Shown: positions 43,238 to 53,621 of the stretch, in pieces
Layout: every line of letters starts with the position of its first letter
Position numbering within the stretch: position 1 is the stretch's first letter
DNA from: Candidatus Ozemibacter sibiricus
Lineage (GTDB): Bacteria > Muiribacteriota > Ozemobacteria > Ozemobacterales > Ozemobacteraceae
DNA length: 64,000 nt
Reading direction: 5' to 3'
NCBI GenBank assembly: GCA_003327425.1
Contig: QOQW01000001.1
Location: 124,001 to 188,000, forward strand
The notes under the pieces: generated by a model
What the model was told of the DNA's origin: nothing
Database searches by the model: none
The model's input: the letters and a program-made list of their open reading frames with translations, nothing else
Made by a program: the position numbers and the translations under genes

Positions 43238-44386
43238 TCAGTTGAACGGGGTGCCATGCGGGAATGGCACCTGCAGATGCCTGGCGACCGAAGCGGCGAC
43301 ATCCCAGAATCCTTGTCGGATGCCGAGATCCCGGCCCGGGCGTCCCTTCTGGTAGGTCAACAGGAAGGGGTATTCGCGGGTGTGGTCGCTGCCTTTGAAG
43401 GTGGGATCGCACCCGTGGTCGGCGGTCAGGATCAGCAGATCATCAGCGGTCAGCCGCGGCAGGAAGTCGGCCAGCCAGCGGTCGAACTCCTCGAGGGCGT
43501 TCTTGTACCCGGCCACGTCGCGCCGGTGGCCGTAGACCATGTCGTAGTCGACGAGATTCGTGAAGATGAACCCATGCTTCACGGTGTCGAGGGCGGCCAT
43601 CGTCTTGCGCATGCCGTCGGCGTTGCCTTCGGTGGTCACGTGCGGCTCGACGCCGCGTCCGGCGAAGATGTCGTAGATCTTGCCGATGCCGTAGGTCGGG
43701 ATCTGGCGGGCGTGCAGCACGTCGAGCACGGTCTCGCCGCTGGGCGGCAGGCTGAAGTCATGGCGGTGGCTGGTGCGCTTGTAGGCGCCCGAGGTGCCGA
43801 TGAAGGGGCGGGCGATGACCCGCCCGACCGCCATGTCCGGCGGTTGCAGCATCTCTCGGGCGATCCGACACATCTTGTACAATTCTTCCAAGGGTATCAC
43901 TTCTTCGTGCGCGGCGACCTGGAAGACCGAATCGGCCGAGGTGTAGACGATCGGCTTGCCGGTGCGCACATGCTCGTCGCCGAGCTGCATGATGATCTCG
44001 GTGCCCGAGGCCGGGTAGTTGCCCAGCGTGCCGCGGCCGATGGCGGCTTCGTACCTGGCCAGCCAGTCCTTGGGAAACCCTTGCGGATAGACGGGGAAGG
44101 GGTATTCGAGCTTGACGCCCATCATTTCCCAGTGCCCGGTGGTGGTGTCTTTTCCCGGGGAGAGTTCGAGCATTTTGCCGTAGCCCCCTTCCGGGGCGGG
44201 GGCGGGGGGAACGCCTCTGATCGGCGCGATGTTGCCCAGGCCGAGTCGCCCCATGGTGGGCAGGTGCAGGCCGCCGGCCGCTTCGGCCAGATTGGGCAGG
44301 GTGCCCGATCCGGCATCGCCGTACTGGGCGGCATCCGGCATGGCGCCGATGCCGACGCTGTCGAGAACGATACAGATGGCTCGCAT
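43238..44386 (-). CDS. deoB: Phosphopentomutase
   Basis: 382 aa, alkaline-phosphatase superfamily. Moves phosphate between C1 and C5 of ribose or deoxyribose. Metal-binding motifs ICIVLDSVGIGAMPDA at the start and LTADHGCDP followed by GSDHTREYPFL near the end; substrate motif KDTTTGHWEMMG. Ribosome site GGAGGTGA is ideal. It is the last gene of the BMC operon, 187 bp after rpiB-like, and would feed deoxyribose-5-phosphate from nucleoside phosphorolysis into the pathway. DeoB has no visible encapsulation peptide, so it is probably cytosolic. Confidence 0.95.
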   Translation of the reverse strand: MRAICIVLDSVGIGAMPDAAQYGDAGSGTLPNLAEAAGGLHLPTMGRLGLGNIAPIRGVPPAPAPEGGYGKMLELSPGKDTTTGHWEMMGVKLEYPFPVYPQGFPKDWLARYEAAIGRGTLGNYPASGTEIIMQLGDEHVRTGKPIVYTSADSVFQVAAHEEVIPLEELYKMCRIAREMLQPPDMAVGRVIARPFIGTSGAYKRTSHRHDFSLPPSGETVLDVLHARQIPTYGIGKIYDIFAGRGVEPHVTTEGNADGMRKTMAALDTVKHGFIFTNLVDYDMVYGHRRDVAGYKNALEEFDRWLADFLPRLTADDLLILTADHGCDPTFKGSDHTREYPFLLTYQKGRPGRDLGIRQGFWDVAASVARHLQVPFPHGTPFN

Positions 44387-44572
44387 GGAATCACCTCCAG
44401 GAGGGTGGGCTTCCCCTCACCAGTGTTCTATCACAATCGTGGGGGTTCGGGGTGTCCTGGGCAGGGCCGCGGCACCGCCGGGACACGGAGAAGGAACGAC
44501 CGTCGGCCACGGCAGCCATGTGGTCGCGGCGGGATGGCTGGGCAGGCGGTCAAGGCGCGGACTCGAAGCTCT

Positions 44573-45043
44573 TCACGCCGCAGGCGGGTGGTGGGAGGCG
44601 GGAATCTGCTCGAGTCGCATGATCTTGGCGACCCGGGCGGCGTGGCGGCCGGGGGCCGGGGCGGTGGCCAGCCACAGATCGACGATCTGCCTGGCGAGGC
44701 CGGGGCCCACGACCATGCTGCCCATGGTGAGCACGTTGGCATGGTTGTGTTCGCGGCTGTTGCGGGCGGTGTAGAGATCGTTGCAGCAACCAGCCCGCAC
44801 GCCGGGCACCTTGTTGGCGGCCATGCACGAACCGATGCCGGCGCCATCGATGATGATGCCCAGCGTATGCTCGTTGCGGCCGACCTGGCTGGCCACGAGG
44901 AAGGCGATGTCAGGGTAGTCGACGGGATCGGTCGAATGGGTGCCGACATCCTCGACGACGAAATTCTTTTCGAGCAGGTGCTTCTTCAGCTCTTCCTTGA
45001 GCAGGAAGCCGCCGTGATCAGCGCCGATGATCAGACGTGGCAT
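44573..45043 (-). CDS. rpiB: RpiB/LacAB-family sugar-phosphate isomerase with Cys-to-Asp change
   Basis: 156 aa. RpiB fold: IIGADHGGFLLKEELKKHL (substrate phosphate and ring-opening His), DVGTHSTDPVDYPD, NKVPGVRAGCCND, SREHNHANVLTMG. In RpiB the catalytic Cys precedes GTGIG; here the same position is Asp (IIDGAGIGS), as in the LacB subunit of galactose-6-phosphate isomerase (TID-YGAGS). The expected general base is thus altered, and a Cys appears seven residues later. Start shares one base with the pduT stop (TGATG). It probably acts on a pentose phosphate in this BMC pathway; ribose-5-phosphate isomerase activity should not be assumed. Confidence 0.85.
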   Translation of the reverse strand: MPRLIIGADHGGFLLKEELKKHLLEKNFVVEDVGTHSTDPVDYPDIAFLVASQVGRNEHTLGIIIDGAGIGSCMAANKVPGVRAGCCNDLYTARNSREHNHANVLTMGSMVVGPGLARQIVDLWLATAPAPGRHAARVAKIMRLEQIPASHHPPAA

Positions 45044-45603
45044 CACAGATACTCCCGGAACAGTTCTTCGCGCGGCCGCGGGATCACCACCGAGGAGACG
45101 ACCTGTCCGCGCCCCTGCAGGATGGCGAGGCCGGCGGCCACGCCGGCTTCGACCGCGGCGACGTCGCCGGTGATGGTATAGAAGCCTTTGCCGCCGATGG
45201 CCATGGCCAGCCGGATTTCGCACAGGTCGACCTCGGCCGCCTTGACCGAGGCGTCGGCGGCGAGGATGGTGGCGACCACGTCGAAGGTTTCGACCACGCC
45301 CAGGGCGCCGGGGGCGGGCAGGGTGTTGGTGGCGGTCAGGGCGGGATAGATCTGCGGATGGAGGTTGGGAATGACCAGGTCATTGACCAGATAGCCCTGG
45401 CCGACGCGCACGCCGGCGCTCACGCTGGCTTCGACGGCGGCGACGTCGCCCCAGACGAGCACCATGTACTTGCCCGGGCAGATGGTGCGGGCCAGCACCA
45501 GTTCGACGGTGGCGGCCTTGAGCATGGTATCGGTGGTGAGGTAGCCGACCGCGATGCTGGACAGCTCGATCAGGCCGATGGCGTGGTGGCGGGGGATGGT
45601 CAT
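45043..45603 (-). CDS. pduT: PduT-type BMC-T shell protein with iron-sulfur site
   Basis: 186 aa made of two BMC domains (about 6-90 and 98-182). Both contain the BMC pattern (AIGLIELSSIAVG; GALGVVETFDVV). The first domain has TICPGKYMVLVWGDVAAVE, close to PduT, where the Cys of ICPGK from three subunits holds a [4Fe-4S] cluster in the pore; Cys42 is the counterpart. It would form the electron conduit across the shell for PduS, encoded just upstream. GGGAG lies upstream; the stop overlaps the rpiB start. Confidence 0.92.
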   Translation of the reverse strand: MTIPRHHAIGLIELSSIAVGYLTTDTMLKAATVELVLARTICPGKYMVLVWGDVAAVEASVSAGVRVGQGYLVNDLVIPNLHPQIYPALTATNTLPAPGALGVVETFDVVATILAADASVKAAEVDLCEIRLAMAIGGKGFYTITGDVAAVEAGVAAGLAILQGRGQVVSSVVIPRPREELFREYL

Positions 45604-45610
45604 CGCATGC

Positions 45611-46924
45611 TCACTCCCTGGCGATGGTGATGGCGTCGGCCGTCACCTCGGCGACCCGGCCGCTGATCGAGGCGTGCAGGACGGCTCCCAGCTTCTGAGG
45701 GGGGATGGCCCCGATCTTCTGCCCGGCGGCGACGCGGTCGCCCGGCTTGACCAGCGGCTGGACGGGCACCCCGATGTGCATCTTCAGCGGCAGCCGCACC
45801 CGCTCGACGCGCAGGTCGACGGGGGTGAAGGGGGCCTTGCGGTCGTAGTCGAGCAGGCCGATCTTCTTGAGGAGGCGGTCGATGCTGACCCGGCGGGCCG
45901 ACCGCATCGGATGGACGCTCGGGGCGCCCTTCCAGTCGGACAGCTTGACGCCGCGCGCGAGGTGGGTTTTCTTGGCGGCGACGGCCATTTCGCGGGGCGG
46001 CAGGTCTTCCGGGCAGCTGAAGAGGGAACACAGCCCGCACTCGCAGCAGAAGACCGATTCGATCGACCACGCCTGGTCGTTGGCGGCGCTGAGCTGGGCG
46101 GTGCGCATGGCTTTGTGCGGCTTGATCGGGTAGCCCAGCAGGAAGCGCGGGCACAGTTCGGTGCAATCGGTGCACTGGTCGCAGGCCGAGCGGGCGATGC
46201 GGGTGTGGTCTTTGAGGGAACGGCTCATCTTGCGGATGAGCGGGTGGGCGAGCGGCAGGGCGATCAGGCCGCCGCAGGTCTTGGTCACCACTTCGCGCTC
46301 GAGATCGCCGAGCAGACGGCCCATCATGGGACCGCCGTCGATGATGGCGAGCCCGGTCAGATCGTGCAGACCGGCCAGGGCGAGGGCTTCCCGCACGCTC
46401 AGGCCGATCGGCACTTCGACGGTGACCGGGCGCGGCACCTGGCCGGTGATGGTCAGCACTTTCGTGGTCATGGGCTGGCCGCGCCCGACCAGCAGCAGGG
46501 TCTCGACATTGGCGACCACGCACCCGATATTCAGGGGAATGCCGCCATAGGGAATGAGTCGCTGCGAGGCTTCGTAGACCAGCTCGTACTCATCGCCGGC
46601 CGGGTAGAAATCGCCCAGCGGCAGCAGATCGATGCGGGGGTCGTCGATCGCCGAACGCAGGTGCTCGAGCACCTTGGCGTATTTCTTCTTGACCCCGATG
46701 AACGCTCGCTTGGCGCGGGTCAGGTCGAGGGCCAGCTTCAGCCCCTGCAGGAACGGCGCGGTCTGGTGCAGGAGCAGCTCCTTGTCTTTGTGCAGGAGCG
46801 GCTCGCACTCGGCGCCGTTGACGATGAAATAGTCGATGTCGCGGGCCGCCAGCTTGACGTGGGTGGGGAACCCGGCGCCGCCGCATCCGACGATGCCCAG
46901 TTCTTCGAGGGCCAGTGCTGCCAT
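45611..46924 (-). CDS. pduS: PduS/RnfC-like flavo-iron-sulfur electron-transfer protein
   Basis: 437 aa. N-terminal RnfC-type Rossmann region that binds NADH and flavin (GIVGCGGAGFPTHVKL, VNGAECEPLL), a SLBB domain, two [4Fe-4S] motifs CDQCTDCTELCP (about 250) and CCECGLCSLFSCP (about 294), and a C-terminal barrel-sandwich hybrid domain (about 375-437). In Pdu compartments PduS binds PduT and moves electrons across the shell. No B12-dependent enzyme or alcohol dehydrogenase is present here, which points to NADH reoxidation rather than cobalamin reduction. No clear ribosome site; it lies 27 bp after the aldehyde dehydrogenase gene. Confidence 0.92.
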   Translation of the reverse strand: MAALALEELGIVGCGGAGFPTHVKLAARDIDYFIVNGAECEPLLHKDKELLLHQTAPFLQGLKLALDLTRAKRAFIGVKKKYAKVLEHLRSAIDDPRIDLLPLGDFYPAGDEYELVYEASQRLIPYGGIPLNIGCVVANVETLLLVGRGQPMTTKVLTITGQVPRPVTVEVPIGLSVREALALAGLHDLTGLAIIDGGPMMGRLLGDLEREVVTKTCGGLIALPLAHPLIRKMSRSLKDHTRIARSACDQCTDCTELCPRFLLGYPIKPHKAMRTAQLSAANDQAWSIESVFCCECGLCSLFSCPEDLPPREMAVAAKKTHLARGVKLSDWKGAPSVHPMRSARRVSIDRLLKKIGLLDYDRKAPFTPVDLRVERVRLPLKMHIGVPVQPLVKPGDRVAAGQKIGAIPPQKLGAVLHASISGRVAEVTADAITIARE

Positions 46925-46950
46925 ACGCGGTGGGGACGGCGGCGGGCGGC

Positions 46951-48378
46951 CTAGACGATGCGGAAGGCGTCGACCAGGACGCAGCGTCGCTGACGGGTGA
47001 AGGTGCGAGCGCTGGTCAGGCCCTCGCCGGTGGGCGAGGCGATGGTGAAGGTGGTGAACCCTTCCCCGCCCAGGCCGAGGCCGGCGTAGCTGGGCCCGTT
47101 CTTGACGAAGATCGAGCAGTTGCAGCGGGTGGCCATCTTGTGCAGGTTGTCGAGGTTCTTGCTGTGCATGATGGCGGTGTGGTGATAGCCGTGCTCGACC
47201 TTGACGGCGAGATCGATGGCGGCATGCACATCGCGCACCCGCACCAGCGGCACCACGGGCATCAGCATCTCTTCGAGCACGAAGGGGTGGTCAGGGCCGA
47301 CCTCGCACAGCACCATGCGGATGTCATCGGGCACCTTGACCCCGATGGCATCGAGGATGACGTTGGCATTGCGGCCGACGAACCCGCGATGAGGGCCATG
47401 GGTCTTGGGATCGAGCACGACCTTCTCGAGCTGCAGGATCTCGCGCGCCGAGGCCTCGTAGGCCCCGCTCTGACAGAGGTACTTCTTCAGCTCGTCGGCC
47501 ACCTTCTCGACCACGATGATCTCTTTTTCCGCGATGCACAGGACGTTGTTGTCGAGCGTGGCTCCCGAGACGATGTCGCGGGCGGCCTTCCGCAGATCGG
47601 CCGTCTCGTCGACGACGGCGGGCGGATTGCCCGGACCGGCGGCGATGTATTTCTTGCCTGATTTGGCGGCGGCCGCCACCACGGCGGGGCCCCCGGTGAC
47701 GACGAGCAGCCGGATGTCGGGATGCGTCATCAGGACCTGCGCGGTCTGCACGCTGGGCTTGAGGACGGTGGTCATCAGGTTCTCGGGGCCGCCGGCCTCG
47801 ACCACCGCATCATTGAGGATGCTGACGGCCAGCTGGCTGACGCGGGCCGCGGCGGGGTGCGGGCCGAACACCACGGCGTTGCCGGCGGCGATCATGCCGA
47901 TCGCGTTGCAGATGACCGTTTCCGAGGGGTTGGTCGACGGGGTGATGGCGCCGATCACGCCGTAGGGGGCCTGTTCGACCACCGTCAGGCCGTGATCGCC
48001 CGAATAGGCCACCGGTTGCAGGTCTTCGAGGCCGGGGGTCTTGGTGATGGCCAGCATGTTCTTCTGGATCTTGTCGGCCACCCGGCCGTAGCCGGTCTCC
48101 TCGTGGGCGAGCCGGGCCAGGTCCTCGACCCGTTCGGCCGCCCGCTTGCGCATGTTGGCGATCAGAGCGGCCCGGGTCTTGAGGGGCAGCTCGACCAGCT
48201 TCTTCTGGGCCTGACCGGCGGCGCGAATGGCGTCTTCGACCGCCTCGAAGAGGCCGCGCTGACCGGTCGTCCCTCCCGGGCCGGCCGGCGAGGCCACGGC
48301 CAACGAGGCCCCAGACGCCTGGAGGGCCTTCAGGACCTCCTGCACGATGACGTTCATTTCGTCACGAGTAACGGCCAT
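46951..48378 (-). CDS. pduP: PduP-type CoA-acylating aldehyde dehydrogenase
   Basis: 475 aa. Turns an aldehyde plus CoA and NAD+ into acyl-CoA. The N-terminal residues 3-20 form an amphipathic helix (VTRDEMNVIVQEVLKALQAS) followed by a Gly/Ala/Pro linker, the layout of a BMC encapsulation peptide. Family motifs: GVIGAITPSTNPSETVICNA, GPGNPPAVVDETAD, and catalytic Cys in DNNVLCIAEKE. ATG 48378 has GGGAGG 6 nt upstream; the GTG at 48384 overlaps that site. Likely substrate here is acetaldehyde from a deoxyribose-phosphate aldolase, by inference. Confidence 0.94.
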   Translation of the reverse strand: MAVTRDEMNVIVQEVLKALQASGASLAVASPAGPGGTTGQRGLFEAVEDAIRAAGQAQKKLVELPLKTRAALIANMRKRAAERVEDLARLAHEETGYGRVADKIQKNMLAITKTPGLEDLQPVAYSGDHGLTVVEQAPYGVIGAITPSTNPSETVICNAIGMIAAGNAVVFGPHPAAARVSQLAVSILNDAVVEAGGPENLMTTVLKPSVQTAQVLMTHPDIRLLVVTGGPAVVAAAAKSGKKYIAAGPGNPPAVVDETADLRKAARDIVSGATLDNNVLCIAEKEIIVVEKVADELKKYLCQSGAYEASAREILQLEKVVLDPKTHGPHRGFVGRNANVILDAIGVKVPDDIRMVLCEVGPDHPFVLEEMLMPVVPLVRVRDVHAAIDLAVKVEHGYHHTAIMHSKNLDNLHKMATRCNCSIFVKNGPSYAGLGLGGEGFTTFTIASPTGEGLTSARTFTRQRRCVLVDAFRIV

Positions 48379-48448
48379 GATCACCCTCCCTGTACAAGAG
48401 GAGCAGAAAGGCAGGCTGCGTCAGGACCAGGACGGGGCAGCGGCCGCT

Positions 48449-48733
48449 CTACGGCCTGCCCCGTTCCTGGTCCATGACCACCGCATCGACGATGCCGGCG
48501 ATCGCGGCATCGACGGGTTTGTTCAGCGTCCGGTCGGTGAGGCGGGCCGAACTGCCGGAAACCAGCAGCACGGTTTCGGCCGCCCCCGCGCCGACGGCAT
48601 CCGCCGCGATGACGTACTTGCCGGTGGGCTTGGCGTCGATGGTCAGCTCTTCGACGACCAGGAGCTTGATGCCCTCCAGGCGTTCATCCTTGCGGGTGCA
48701 GACGACGGTCCCGCAGACGCGTCCGAGGTTCAT
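48449..48733 (-). CDS. eutN: BMC-P vertex protein (EutN/CcmL family)
   Basis: 94 aa, single EutN/CcmL domain: LGRVCGTVVCTRKDERLEG, LLVVEELTIDAKPTGKYVIAADAVGAG, ETVLLVSGSSAR. These pentamers cap the twelve vertices of the shell. This is the only BMC-P gene in the window, while many loci have two or three. It lies 70 bp before pduP. Confidence 0.95.
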   Translation of the reverse strand: MNLGRVCGTVVCTRKDERLEGIKLLVVEELTIDAKPTGKYVIAADAVGAGAAETVLLVSGSSARLTDRTLNKPVDAAIAGIVDAVVMDQERGRP

Positions 48734-48751
48734 GCCAGGCGAAGGTCCAGC

Positions 48752-49045
48752 TTATTTCTTGCTGGTCGTGACTTCCCGGATGGGCATGACCTCGTCGAGG
48801 TTGGCGTGCGGCCTCGGGATGACATGGACGCAGACGAGTTCGCCGATCTTCTTGGCGGCGGCTGCGCCGGCGTCGGTGGCGGCCTTGACGGCGGCGACAT
48901 CGCCCCGCACGAAGGCGGTGACGAAGCCGGATCCGATTTTTTCCCAGCCGACCAGCCGGACGTTGGCGGCTTTCACCATGGCGTCGCTGGCTTCGATCAG
49001 GGCGGTCAAACCTTTGGTCTCGATCATTCCGAGGGCTTCCTGCAT
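48752..49045 (-). CDS. pduA: BMC-H shell hexamer protein (PduA/EutM-like)
   Basis: 97 aa, one BMC domain: [20 protein letters not shown], the pore loop KIGSGFVT, and [20 protein letters not shown] matches the hexamers that pass small metabolites through the facets. Short C-terminal extension ([10 protein letters not shown]). AAGGAGG precedes the ATG. Only one BMC-H gene is in this operon. Confidence 0.95.
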
Positions 49046-49101
49046 GACTTCCTCCTTGGGAATTCGTGAAGAGATTGATTTGGCGATGGAGATTCAGGGG
49101 A

Positions 49102-49746
49102 TCAGGCGATGAGTTCGACACGATCGCCGGTCTTGATGTTCCCGGCGTTCGCTTCATCCATGTCGATGTGGAAATCGAGGGCGAACTGGTCGCTGACACG
49201 GACCAGCACATTGCAGAAGATCAGGGCCTTCGGCCCGGAGGTCTTGACGCTGATGCGGTCCATGTCTTTGAGACCGAATTTCTCCGCATCCTTGGAATGC
49301 ATGTGGATGTGGCGGGCGGCGACGATGACGCCTTCCTTGAGGTTGATGGCGCCCTTGGGCCCGACCACGACCAGCCCGGGCGTCCCCTTGGTGTCGCCCG
49401 AATCGCGCACCACGGCCGGAACGCCCAGGGTGTACGAATCGGTGACCGAGATCTCGATCTGCGTGGCTTTGCGCACCGGGCCGAGAATGCGGCATTTCTC
49501 GATGATGCCCTTCTTGCCGATCAGCATGACGCACTCTTCGGCGGCGAACTGGCCCGGCTGGGAAAGATCTTTCATCACCTTCAGCTGGTACCCCGGGCCG
49601 AACAGCAGGTCGAGATCTTCCTGCGACAGGTGGATGTGCCGACCGCTGACCCCGACTGGAATGGTGCCGGGCTTGATGCGGTCCTGCAGGTCGACCTGCT
49701 TGAGAACCTCAGCCACGATTTGCTTCACTTTCTTCTCGTCGAGCAT
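49102..49746 (-). CDS. pduL: Phosphotransacylase PduL
   Basis: 214 aa. Converts acyl-CoA and phosphate to acyl-phosphate and CoA, recycling CoA inside the shell. Two metal-binding beta-barrel halves carry GVSGRHIHLSQEDLDLLFG and VAARHIHMHSKDAEKFGL. The first 20 residues (DEKKVKQIVAEVLKQVDL) form an amphipathic helix typical of an encapsulation peptide and resemble the PduP N-terminus. AGGAAGG precedes the ATG. Confidence 0.95.
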   Translation of the reverse strand: MLDEKKVKQIVAEVLKQVDLQDRIKPGTIPVGVSGRHIHLSQEDLDLLFGPGYQLKVMKDLSQPGQFAAEECVMLIGKKGIIEKCRILGPVRKATQIEISVTDSYTLGVPAVVRDSGDTKGTPGLVVVGPKGAINLKEGVIVAARHIHMHSKDAEKFGLKDMDRISVKTSGPKALIFCNVLVRVSDQFALDFHIDMDEANAGNIKTGDRVELIA

Positions 49747-49755
49747 GCTTCCTTC

Positions 49756-50826
49756 CTATCCTTTGCGTTGGACCGGGCGGTCCAGTTCCTGGTCGTCGAT
49801 CAGGCGAGCTGTCGGCGGCCGGGCCGTGTCGGAGGGCCCTCGAACATCGGGGGTGGCCAGGGGTACGAAGATCGGCGGCGACCGATGGCTCCCGGGATGC
49901 GGGGCCATTATATCACACTCGACGAGCCGTTCAAGGGGGAGGGTGGTGAAAATCGCCAGCCCGCACCGAGCGGCCAGAGCGGCCAGTGATCGCAGATGGG
50001 CGGGGTCGGAATAGGGGGGCGCGGCGGGCAGGATGGCCCCGCGACAGCCCAGGTCGGCCAGCATGGCGATGGAGGTCTCGCCGGTGAAGGCGCCCTGCGA
50101 TGCCCAGTGAACCGTGGAGGCGACCAGGCGATGCCGCAAGGCCGGAAACAGCTCCTGGAAGATGGGGATGAGGGGCGGGGCGAGCACGAACAGCAGCGAG
50201 GGGTGCGCGTGGGCGACCTGGAACAGCCGCTCGCCGGCCGCCTGTAGGTCCTGGCGGGTGGCGGCGCGCACTCGGTACAGGAGACATTGGGGGGCGGGCT
50301 CCGCCTCGGTCAGGCCGAGGGCGGTGGCGACCTCGCGCGCCCAGTCGGTCAAGGGGCGGCCGGCCGGTAGAACGCGGATGCCCTGCCAATGGAGTTCGCG
50401 CACCTCCTCAGCGGTCAGGGCCTGTCGAGGATCGGTCGACGGCGGGGCCTGCCGCGATGCCTGGTCAGAGGCGAGCAGGCTGGCGAGGTCCTGCGGAAGA
50501 ATCGGCTCGAGGCCGAGGTCGACCCAGTCTTTCGGGGGACGGCCGGGAGCGGGGACCAAGGCGCGCACCGGCGGACCGTCAGGATGCTTGAGGAGCTCCC
50601 ATAGGGCTTCCAGCGCGGGCGAATCGCGCAGGCCGAGGGCCGCCTTGCGCAGCAGGTCGGGCGGCACCTCGTGCAGAACGACCGCCGCGAAGCGGGAAAA
50701 CCCTAGCCATCGTACCGATTCGAGACTGGTCAGCAGGAAGGTCTCGGGCTCGAGGCCGAAAGGCGGCTGGCACAGCGTCTCGACGGTGACCTGGGAGGAA
50801 ACGATCAGCAGCGGTCGGGCAGGCAT
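49756..50826 (-). CDS. BMC-operon protein with degenerate triosephosphate-isomerase-like region
   Basis: 356 aa, first gene of the BMC operon. Three parts: residues 1-115, a Rossmann-like region of unknown type (LLIVSSQVTVETL; FAAVVLHEVPPDLL); residues 137-172, LTAEEVRELHWQGIRVLPA then LTDWAREVATALGL, a segment seen in several BMC cargo proteins; residues about 180-300, similar to the first half of triosephosphate isomerase: LFVLAPPLIPIF, VHWASQGAFTGETSIAMLADLG. GAFTGETS is identical to E. coli TpiA. Yet the catalytic Lys (NWK) and His (GHSERR) positions hold other residues and the Glu half is absent. Start chosen from the promoter; ATG 50835 lies in the -10 box. Likely non-enzymatic or changed in function. 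Confidence 0.7.
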   Translation of the reverse strand: MPARPLLIVSSQVTVETLCQPPFGLEPETFLLTSLESVRWLGFSRFAAVVLHEVPPDLLRKAALGLRDSPALEALWELLKHPDGPPVRALVPAPGRPPKDWVDLGLEPILPQDLASLLASDQASRQAPPSTDPRQALTAEEVRELHWQGIRVLPAGRPLTDWAREVATALGLTEAEPAPQCLLYRVRAATRQDLQAAGERLFQVAHAHPSLLFVLAPPLIPIFQELFPALRHRLVASTVHWASQGAFTGETSIAMLADLGCRGAILPAAPPYSDPAHLRSLAALAARCGLAIFTTLPLERLVECDIMAPHPGSHRSPPIFVPLATPDVRGPSDTARPPTARLIDDQELDRPVQRKG

Positions 50827-50833
50827 CGCCGCC

Positions 50834-50862
50834 ATGATAGTGGAGCGGCGTCGTGAAATCAA
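50834..50862 (-). promoter_or_regulatory. Promoter of the BMC operon, probably leaderless
   Basis: On the minus strand TTGATT (50862-50857), 17-bp spacer, TATCAT (50839-50834). ATG 50826 begins 7 nt after the -10 box. It lies 40 nt downstream of the 6S RNA terminator. No operator could be identified. Confidence 0.65.
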
Positions 50863-50895: not shown

Positions 50896-50930
50896 GAAAA
50901 ACGGAAGGCCGCGCGTCGCGCGGCCTTCCT
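50896..50930 (-). terminator. Intrinsic terminator of the 6S RNA
   Basis: A perfect 11-bp stem (AGGAAGGCCGCG / CGCGGCCTTCC, 50929-50903) is followed on the minus strand by GTTTTTCC. No T tract follows on the plus strand, so it works for a minus-strand transcript. Confidence 0.8.
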
Positions 50931-51124
50931 CAACGAGCCCCCGCTGATGCCGTGTGAGGAAAAATTGAACCCGAACCTAAAGGTAACGGTTGTCCGCCCA
51001 CGTCAAGACGAGTGCTTCGTAACAGGGAACCCTGTTCGTAAGGGGTGCTCGAAAAGCCGTGGAGACAGATTCCCTCGAGATACAGGTGTCGGCTCAATTA
51101 AACCTGCACCATCACGCGCACCGC
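50930..51124 (-). ncRNA. ssrS: Probable 6S RNA
   Basis: A minus-strand RNA of about 190 nt with the features of 6S RNA, which binds sigma-70 RNA polymerase. The ends pair: CGC(G)TGATG at 51118-51110 with CATCAGCG at 50949-50942. TGAGCCGA at 51096-51089 and CGGCATC at 50952-50946 occur in the places where E. coli 6S RNA has CTGAGCCGAT and CGGCATC. The middle folds into one long arm: CCACG (51062-51058) with CGTGG (51002-50998), and an apical hairpin AACAGGG/CCCTGTT (51036-51021). A promoter and terminator bracket it. This is structure read by eye, not a covariance-model hit. Confidence 0.7.
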
Positions 51125-51130
51125 AGGGAA

Positions 51131-51159
51131 AAATGTGTCAAAGAACGCTACTGTTACAA
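51131..51159 (-). promoter_or_regulatory. Promoter of the 6S RNA
   Basis: On the minus strand TTGTAA (51159-51154), 17-bp spacer, ACATTT (51136-51131). The predicted start near 51124 agrees with the beginning of the closing stem. Confidence 0.45.
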
Positions 51160-51518
51160 AGATATCACATGGCTGGGGGGTGAGCAAGGGGGGCCGTCAA
51201 AAACCAGTGGCCAACCCCGAACCTGCGCTCTCCCGTCCGCCAAGATGTGGCGATCTGGCCTGGGGGGCAACGGCTGATGGAGGCAACGGGCGATTCGCCT
51301 GCTGAACCGCTGCTGTCCACCAGCCCCGACCAGGGGGCCTGGGACCGGCGGTCCTGGGTTCGCCGTCTGCGCAAGAGACGCCCCCTGCGTGTAAAGCTTG
51401 CCTGAGGGGGGTGGCCTGGCCGCTCTCTCATGGCCGCCTCCTCTGCGATCTTGAAACGGGGTCAGCGAGAGGGGGGAACGACCCCAGCTTCGCATGGGGC
51501 GGGAACGCCCTGGCGGGA
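51160..51518. other. Intergenic stretch without a supported gene
   Basis: About 360 bp between the 6S promoter and uvrB. A minus-strand frame of 88 codons (51431-51165) has an AGGAGG site but an Arg/Ser/Pro-rich product with no recognisable fold, so I do not call it a gene. No tRNA, RNase P, tmRNA or SRP RNA signature is seen. Confidence 0.5.
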
Positions 51519-53621
51519 TCAGGGGCGGGAGCGGTGGGGAGGGGAGCCGGCCCGGGCCGCGGGACCGCGGCGCATGGCCTGGCGTCGCGACTGGCCCTTT
51601 TCCCGCCCGGCCTTCAACGCCCCGCGCAAGTTGGACAGCACGCCCTGCTCGAGGTGCTCCTCCTGCAGGGCGATGATCTCATCGCGAATGAGGGCGGCCC
51701 GTTCGAACTGCAGAGCGGCCGCCGCCTGCTCCATTTCCTTCTTGAGGTCTTCGATCAGGCTGGTCAACCGGTCGGGAGCGAGCCGCGCCGGCCCTTCCCC
51801 AGAGCTTGCGCCGGGCACGGTGAAGGCGGACGGCAGTTTCTTGACGATCGAGGTCGGTTCGATGCCGTGCGTGCGGTTGAACTCCTCTTGAATGCGGCGG
51901 CGGCGTTCGGTCTCTTCGATGCACTTCTGCATCGAGGGCGTGATCCGGTCGGCGTAGAGGATCACCTCGCCGTTGACGTTGCGGGCCGCCCGGCCACAGG
52001 TCTGGATCAAGGCCCAGGCTGAACGCAGGAAGCCCTCCTTGTCAGCGTCGAGGATGGCCACCAGGCTGACCTCGGGCAGGTCGAGCCCCTCTCGCAACAG
52101 GTTGATGCCTACCAGCACCGAGAAGACGCCCTGTCGCAGGTCGCGCAGGATCTCGATCCGTTCGAGGGTGTCGATTTCATCATGCAGGTACCGGGCAGGG
52201 ACATCCATCTGGGTCAGCCAGGTCGCCAGCTCCATGGCCATGCGTTTGGTCAGGGTGGTCACCAGCACGCGCTCGCCCCGATCGATCCGCTCGCGGATGC
52301 GCGCCAGCAGGTGGTCGATCTGTCCGGCGGTGGGCACCACCGAGATGCGGGGATCGAGCAGGCCGGTGGGCCGGATCAACTGTTCGACGACGCGCGGACC
52401 GGATTGCTCGAGTTCCCAGGGACCGGGGGTGGCCGAGACGAACAGCAGGGGACGCTGGCGCGCCAGGAATTCCTCGAAGGTCAAGGGGCGGTTGTCGAGC
52501 GCCGACGGCAGGCGGAAGCCATAATCGACGAGCGTCTGCTTGCGGCTGCGGTCGCCATGGCACATGCCCTTGAACTGCGGCACGGTCATGTGCGATTCAT
52601 CGAGAATGATGAGGCAGTCTTTCGGCAGGTAGTCGATCAGCGTGTCGGGGGCTTCCCCGGGCTGCCGTCCGGCCAGGTGGCGGGAATAGTTCTCGATGCC
52701 TTTGCAGGTGCCGGTCTCCCGCATCATCTCGAGGTCATAGCGGGTGCGCTCCTGCAGGCGCTGGGCCTCGACCAGCTTCTTCTGGCTCTCGAACCAGGCG
52801 ACCCGCTCGCGCAATTCGGCCTCGATGCTCTGCAAGGCCGCTTCCCGCTTGTGTTTCGGCGTGACGTAATGCTGCGCCGGGAAGATGGACACCTCGTCGA
52901 GGCTGGCCAGCATTTCCCCGGTCAGCGGGTCGAACCGCTCGATCCGTTCGATCTCGTCGCCGAAGAACTTGACTCGCAGCGCCTGTTCGCTCGAGGCGGG
53001 GAAGATGTCGATCGTCTCGCCGCGGGCCCGGAAGCGCGAGCGGTGGAAATCCATGTCGTTGCGCGAATACTGGATCTCGATCAGTTCGCGCACCAGCTGC
53101 TGCCGCGGATGGACGCTGCCCCGCTTCAGGTGGAGCTTGAGCCCGGCATAGTCTTCCGGCGAGCCCAGGCCGTAGATGCAGCTGACCGAGGCGACGATCA
53201 GCACGTCGCGCCGGGTGAACAGGGCCGCGGTGGCGGCATGCCGGAACCGATCGATCTCCTCGTTGATGTCGGAATCCTTCTCGATATACTGGTCGGTGGT
53301 CGGAATGTAGGCTTCGGGCTGATAGTAGTCGTAGTAGCTGACGAAGTATTCCACCGCATTGTGGGGGAAGAACTCCTTGAACTCGCTGTACAACTGGGCG
53401 GCCAGGGTCTTGTTGTGGGTGACGACCAGGACTGGCCGGCCGAGCCGGGCGATCAGGTTGGCCATGGTGAAGGTCTTGCCGGAACCCGTCACGCCCAGCA
53501 GGGTGGCAAACGGGGCGCCGGCCTGGATCCATTCGACCAGGCGCTCGACGGCCTGGGGTTGATCGCCGCGCATCTGGAACGGACTGACCAGCTGGAAGAT
53601 CGCGGGTTGCTTCGCATTCAT
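51519..53621 (-). CDS. uvrB: UvrABC excinuclease subunit B
   Basis: 700 aa. Nucleotide-excision-repair helicase-like subunit. Walker [14 protein letters not shown], beta-hairpin [25 protein letters not shown]-like [11 protein letters not shown], motif [11 protein letters not shown], and a C-terminal UVR motif ([22 protein letters not shown]). A basic tail of about 25 residues extends past the UVR motif. The -10-like TATACT at 53634-53629 lies 7 nt before the ATG, suggesting a leaderless mRNA; no -35 is evident. It is divergent from the DppA-type gene. A LexA box was not found. Confidence 0.96.

Follow-up and report, generated by a model that had tools for sequence, protein, structure and literature searches.

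A 6S RNA gene with a boxA-like leader and a conserved BMC gene neighbourhood in Riflebacteria

The window, a stretch of 64,000 nucleotides from Candidatus Ozemibacter sibiricus, very probably carries the only 6S RNA (ssrS) gene found in this genome, with a promoter and a terminator of its own, a boxA-like leader seen only in the window's family, and a conserved neighbourhood of microcompartment (BMC) genes. RNAs of the 6S family are decoys shaped like an open promoter, which hold sigma-70 RNA polymerase when growth slows and are released from it upon synthesis of a short product RNA. Taken alone, the gene is a further member of this known family; its unusual linkage to BMC genes and its boxA-like leader, a signal typical of rRNA operons, set it apart. 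A literature search found no report joining Riflebacteria and 6S RNA; our analysis adds 6S RNA to this little-studied phylum.

Results

The 6S RNA gene between uvrB and the BMC operon

The first-pass annotation of this DNA had proposed a minus-strand 6S RNA gene in the gap that separates uvrB (51519-53621) from the first BMC gene, naming the Rfam 6S covariance model as a check and the lack of compensatory stem changes among relatives as grounds for dropping the call. We found that RF00013 matched 51132-50934 (minus strand) over its full length (model positions 1-187 of 187) with 36.6 bits against a gathering score of 46.4, the E-value being 5.2e-6 in the 411 bases searched and 1.7e-5 genome-wide. 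The window copy therefore lies about 10 bits under the Rfam gathering score, and when the whole window was scanned with Rfam at this threshold, nothing matched. This was the sole 6S match in the whole genome; a second copy was rejected, as the whole-genome 6S model search found none. At 199 nt, the match falls within the ~180-200 nt set as the size of a 6S RNA, and the ~190 nt first predicted is shorter than the Rfam match. The fold energy of the stretch tested, which includes the terminator, had a z of -2.97, with 2 of 200 shuffles equally low. The two motifs pointed out earlier were located on the minus strand, TGAGCCGA at 51096-51089 and CGGCATC at 50952-50946. GAGCC is invariant in all 20 aligned sequences within GAGCCGAC (51088-51095, minus strand), the likely start region of the product RNA, which we take it to be by analogy with E. 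coli.

We then counted pairs with changes on both sides in an alignment of 20 sequences, comprising 19 of the 20 from f1 (all but G037) and one from f8, and none from f3, f4 or f7; families are labelled f1, the window's own, to f8. The results showed two-sided changes in 25 of 54 pairs, against 16.0 (sd 1.6) in shuffles, none of 500 of which was as high. Paired cells made up 94.5% of the alignment, and slid versions were 37-44% paired with 7-11 two-sided pairs. The changes were concentrated in the long arm (12/17 pairs) and the apical hairpin (7/11); the GAGCC and GGTTC strands are invariant and therefore, by themselves, uninformative on pairing. The stems are those of 6S RNA, as this covariation confirms, and the closing stem, long arm and apical hairpin predicted on the minus strand do fold and covary. 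The full-length match, the compensatory changes and the homologues found in 28 of the phylum's 39 genomes indicate that a 6S RNA gene does occupy the minus strand of the gap, with its fold at 50934-51132, and the original call is upheld on both of its proposed grounds.

Two further pairings were seen in the central bubble. On its 3' strand, a possible hairpin at 50968-50991 (minus strand), alternative to the inner stem, was noticed by eye in the alignment and not counted. The 5' strand, 51107-51082 (minus strand), could form its own hairpin around GAGCC (CAGGT with ACCTG); this was 97.5% paired in the 20 sequences, with one two-sided change, a level reached by 21 of 500 shuffles. The 5'-strand hairpin may be an alternative fold adopted after release.

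Promoter, terminator and transcript

A promoter conserved in the family precedes the fold on the minus strand (51159-51187): TTGCTC (51187-51182), 17 bp, and TATCTT (51164-51159), with a TG one base ahead of the -10 (TGATA). TTGC followed by TGnTA stands at the same places in 19/19 aligned f1 loci, and this promoter leaves a leader of ~20 nt before the fold. By eye, a -10-like sequence lies much closer to the fold in f3, f7 and f8. The -35/-10 pair with 17-bp spacing proposed earlier had come without coordinates in an interval ending at 51159, an end that would suit TTGTAA and ~17 bp; this pair is weak, and TTGTAA was rejected as the 6S -35 because it is not conserved among the aligned family loci.

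The terminator hairpin, at 50903-50929 (minus strand), has a 12-bp stem and a 3-nt loop followed by GTTTTT; the earlier prediction was a perfect terminator of 11 bp. A terminator followed 6S in 10 of 19 f1 loci by a strict rule, which found no more because stems ran on into the T run, and in 17 of 19 by a relaxed rule adopted after the strict rule's result; this count excludes G019, where the contig ends behind 6S. Neither rule found a terminator after any of the eight 6S loci of f3, f7 and f8.

The primary RNA would be ~250 nt long, from ~51152 to ~50897, running from its own sigma-70-type promoter to the hairpin terminator, and the ~20-nt leader is probably trimmed. By analogy, the mature form is expected to behave as 6S RNAs do elsewhere, with product RNA made from the GAGCCGA strand.

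The BMC operon behind 6S

The BMC operon of the window has its own minus-strand promoter, TTGATT-17-TATCAT (50834-50862), which is conserved in G000, G001 and G002, and similar pairs occur in G003, G004, G009 and G037. The BMC promoter reported earlier ~40 nt past the terminator therefore looks real, being kept in two other genomes of the genus. The ATG, at 50826, stands 7 nt past the promoter, as it does similarly in six related loci; across the seven f1 loci inspected, the operon has its own promoter and the ATG lies 6-10 nt behind the -10. Because the ATG is so close behind the -10, the sequence suggests that the BMC operon mRNA is leaderless.

The first gene (49756-50826, minus strand), present after 6S in 10 f1 loci, gave a partial triosephosphate isomerase-like protein match and no clear function. 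The rest of the operon (43238-49746, minus strand) encodes PduL, BMC-H, BMC-P (EutN/CcmL), an aldehyde dehydrogenase, an RnfC-like protein, BMC-T, a further ORF and a phosphopentomutase; the presence of the last means that the operon may be of the sugar-phosphate BMC type. In the window's family, the terminator and the separate BMC promoter divide 6S from the BMC operon, and the two are separate adjacent units. Transcriptional read-through into the operon, raised in the first-pass annotation, is accordingly a weak proposition for the window genome, given the strong terminator and the conserved separate promoter; it is plausible in f3, f7 and f8, where no terminator was found.

6S RNA across the phylum and beyond

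We searched 39 Riflebacteria genomes with RF00013 and obtained matches in 28, of which 8 were over the cut-off, so that the Rfam cut-off misses most copies in the phylum. Within f1, 20 of 24 genomes gave a match, and the four that did not are at most 75% complete; three copies over the cut-off belong to this family (G005, G011, G037). BLASTN of the window copy aligned with G005 at 75%, with G011 at 73% and with a 72-bp piece of G037 at 92%, and BLASTN with the window stretch gave a match in 21 of 56 genomes.

A model named R1, derived from 19 f1 sequences plus a single f8 sequence, added two 6S loci of f4 (60.0 and 64.9 bits; 14 genomes searched), which brought the count to 30 of 39 genomes. 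Of 29 6S loci from other bacteria, R1 also recovered 19 with E < 1, at Rfam's own places. It missed G029, which the RF00013 search finds and which a stricter 6S search missed too. The two f4 loci, L256 (G028) and L258 (G024), were missed by RF00013 at E 0.001; they lie beside prepilin-like ORFs (by eye) and are without the leader box.

6S-BMC linkage across families

Using tblastn of the window proteins, covering ~1.5 kb on each side of each 6S, and a shell-domain search of the 39 genomes, we found that 20 of 30 6S loci, spread over four families, are followed by BMC genes on the same strand. The linked loci of f1 are G000-G006, G009, G012, G017, G036 and G037, with G003 counted by the first gene and PduL only; beyond f1, all four of f3, all three of f7 and the single locus of f8 are linked. 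The ten unlinked loci include five with shell genes on other contigs (G007, G011, G014 and two of f4) and G016, which stands at a contig edge. The domain search found no shell genes in G015, G018, G019 and G020, where 6S is present.

The genes that follow 6S in f3 and f7 are, in order, BMC-H, BMC-P and aldehyde dehydrogenase (named by likeness), as inside the window operon. The upstream neighbour varies: it is uvrB in 11 of 20 f1 loci, asparagine synthase in one f3 genus and polysaccharide deacetylase in f7 and f8. The best match of the window UvrB was in JAAYNI010000067.1 of Candidatus Riflebacteria (67%). Since no terminator was found in f3, f7 and f8, 6S and the shell genes probably share a transcript there.

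Beyond Riflebacteria, 6S and shell matches were obtained together in 24 genomes, 23 of them comparable by eye among the matches listed. Linkage outside the phylum was rejected: among the matches listed, 0 of these 23 had 6S and shell genes within 10 kb, and the nearest were about 16 kb apart. A literature search, judged by titles and the beginnings of abstracts, found nothing on a 6S-BMC neighbourhood.

A boxA-like element in the 6S leader

The 6S leader contains a boxA-like element, TTCTTTGACACA (51134-51145, minus strand), which scores 9.4 bits with a matrix of seven rRNA boxes that were chosen by eye once the 6S box was known. We recognised it by its likeness to boxA as found in E. coli and B. 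subtilis. In the window genome, the 16S-23S spacer holds GATCTTTGACAAG, so that TCTTTGACA is common to the spacer and the 6S leader; the spacers of G022 and G024 carry GGTCTTTGAAAA. As a background, 8 of about 128000 window positions (both strands) reach 9.4 bits.

At 9 bits or more, the matrix found the box in 16 of 20 f1 leaders, with G003, G007, G011 and G020 below; the box that reaches this level in G015 and G019 lies 28-30 nt before the fold. The same threshold gave no box in the eight leaders of f3, f7 and f8 or the two of f4, and a single one, located 44 nt ahead of the fold, among the 29 6S loci from other bacteria. The f1 controls gave none in 16 tmRNA and none in 23 RNase P leaders at 9 bits, and a general use of the box for stable RNAs was rejected on this result. 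In the 18 f1 leaders that could be delimited (all but G009 and G016), TTGA was kept in 17, and any 4-letter word was kept in at most 13 of 18 in 500 Markov shuffles. TTGA lies at most 15 nt from the fold in 19 of 20 f1 loci, the exception being G007. These findings indicate that the f1 6S leader carries a boxA-like signal, and that it does so in f1 only.

In genus g11 (L008, L011, L014, L024), 6S leaders have two TTTGA/TTGA boxes, one 28-30 nt and the other ~7 nt ahead of the fold, and the shell-domain search found no BMC shell gene in these genomes. In G005, G012 and G017 only, the TTTGA box looked by eye as if it could pair with the 3' end of the transcript; this pairing, which was not counted, was rejected.

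Discussion

The RNA might be read as a cis-acting leader of the BMC operon that resembles 6S by chance and does not act in trans. In 20 of 30 loci it does precede BMC genes of its own strand, and before the shell gene of f3, f7 and f8 a terminator was found in 0 of 8. However, the RNA is kept without adjoining BMC genes in G007, G011, G014, two genomes of f4 and four genomes in which no shell gene was found, a terminator and a separate BMC promoter follow it in f1, and the 6S models match in both directions; we consider a chance resemblance very improbable. The neighbourhood itself may have no function and be an old gene order passed on by descent, since relatives are not independent and linkage may be plain inheritance. 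The absence of linkage from 10 of 30 loci (one at a contig edge) that retain 6S, and the separate transcription of 6S and BMC genes in f1, agree with this. Against it, linkage survives in four families though the other neighbour changes among uvrB, asparagine synthase and polysaccharide deacetylase, and it occurs in 0 of the 23 comparable genomes outside the phylum among the matches listed. The chances of descent without function seem to us evenly balanced.

The leader box, too, could be something other than boxA, namely a 5'-end processing site or a portion of a second promoter that immediately precedes the fold. A position 7-10 nt before the fold would suit a trimming signal, in some relatives the box reads TTTGATAAT, which resembles a -10, and the promoters of 6S RNAs elsewhere lie, by eye, much closer to the fold. 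The window's own TTTGACACAT, by contrast, is without a good -10, the invariant letters TTGA (19/20) are unlike a -10, the same nine letters recur in the genome's 16S-23S spacer, and the box is missing from the tmRNA and RNase P leaders (0/39). We give a processing or promoter element a serious chance, somewhat short of even. If the box is boxA, NusB and S10 would be brought to the polymerase through it, as happens in rRNA operons, and these would help the untranslated 6S RNA to be completed or processed. In PMC12691694, boxA is described as binding NusB and S10, and the same complex as protecting CRISPR arrays. A literature search found nothing joining boxA, 6S RNA and NusB.

A wider scenario, which we offer tentatively and regard as rather unlikely, is that the 6S RNA of Riflebacteria was anciently a leader cistron of a BMC operon that coupled polymerase control and BMC expression. 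One family would then have uncoupled the two by a terminator and acquired boxA, and a takeover by rRNA antitermination would tie the decoy level to the Nus factors of ribosome synthesis. Whatever its history, the persistence of 6S beside BMC genes across families offers a testable example in which a global regulator and the genes of a metabolic organelle may belong to one transcription unit. If functional, a boxA on the 6S gene would link two global transcription controls, 6S RNA and the rRNA antitermination complex.

Compared with 6S RNA/SsrS (RF00013), the window copy has the same size, closing stem, central bubble, long arm, GAGCC and GGTTC strands and full-length model match, and it differs in its sub-gathering score, its boxA-like leader and its adjoining BMC genes. 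In the ssrS-ygfA locus, the two genes are co-transcribed. PMC9130861 states that bacteria as a whole share no one gene neighbourhood of 6S, and that ygfA often lies beside it in Proteobacteria. As in the ssrS-ygfA locus described there, 6S is kept in Riflebacteria beside one downstream gene across a large group; here, however, the neighbour is a BMC operon, which in f1 is split from 6S by a terminator and a second promoter. The boxA of rRNA operons and CRISPR arrays, as presented in PMC12691694, is similar in that a TCTTTGACA-like box leads an untranslated RNA, as it does in the window genome's rRNA spacer, whereas the candidate box of the window precedes a 200-nt RNA with its own terminator.
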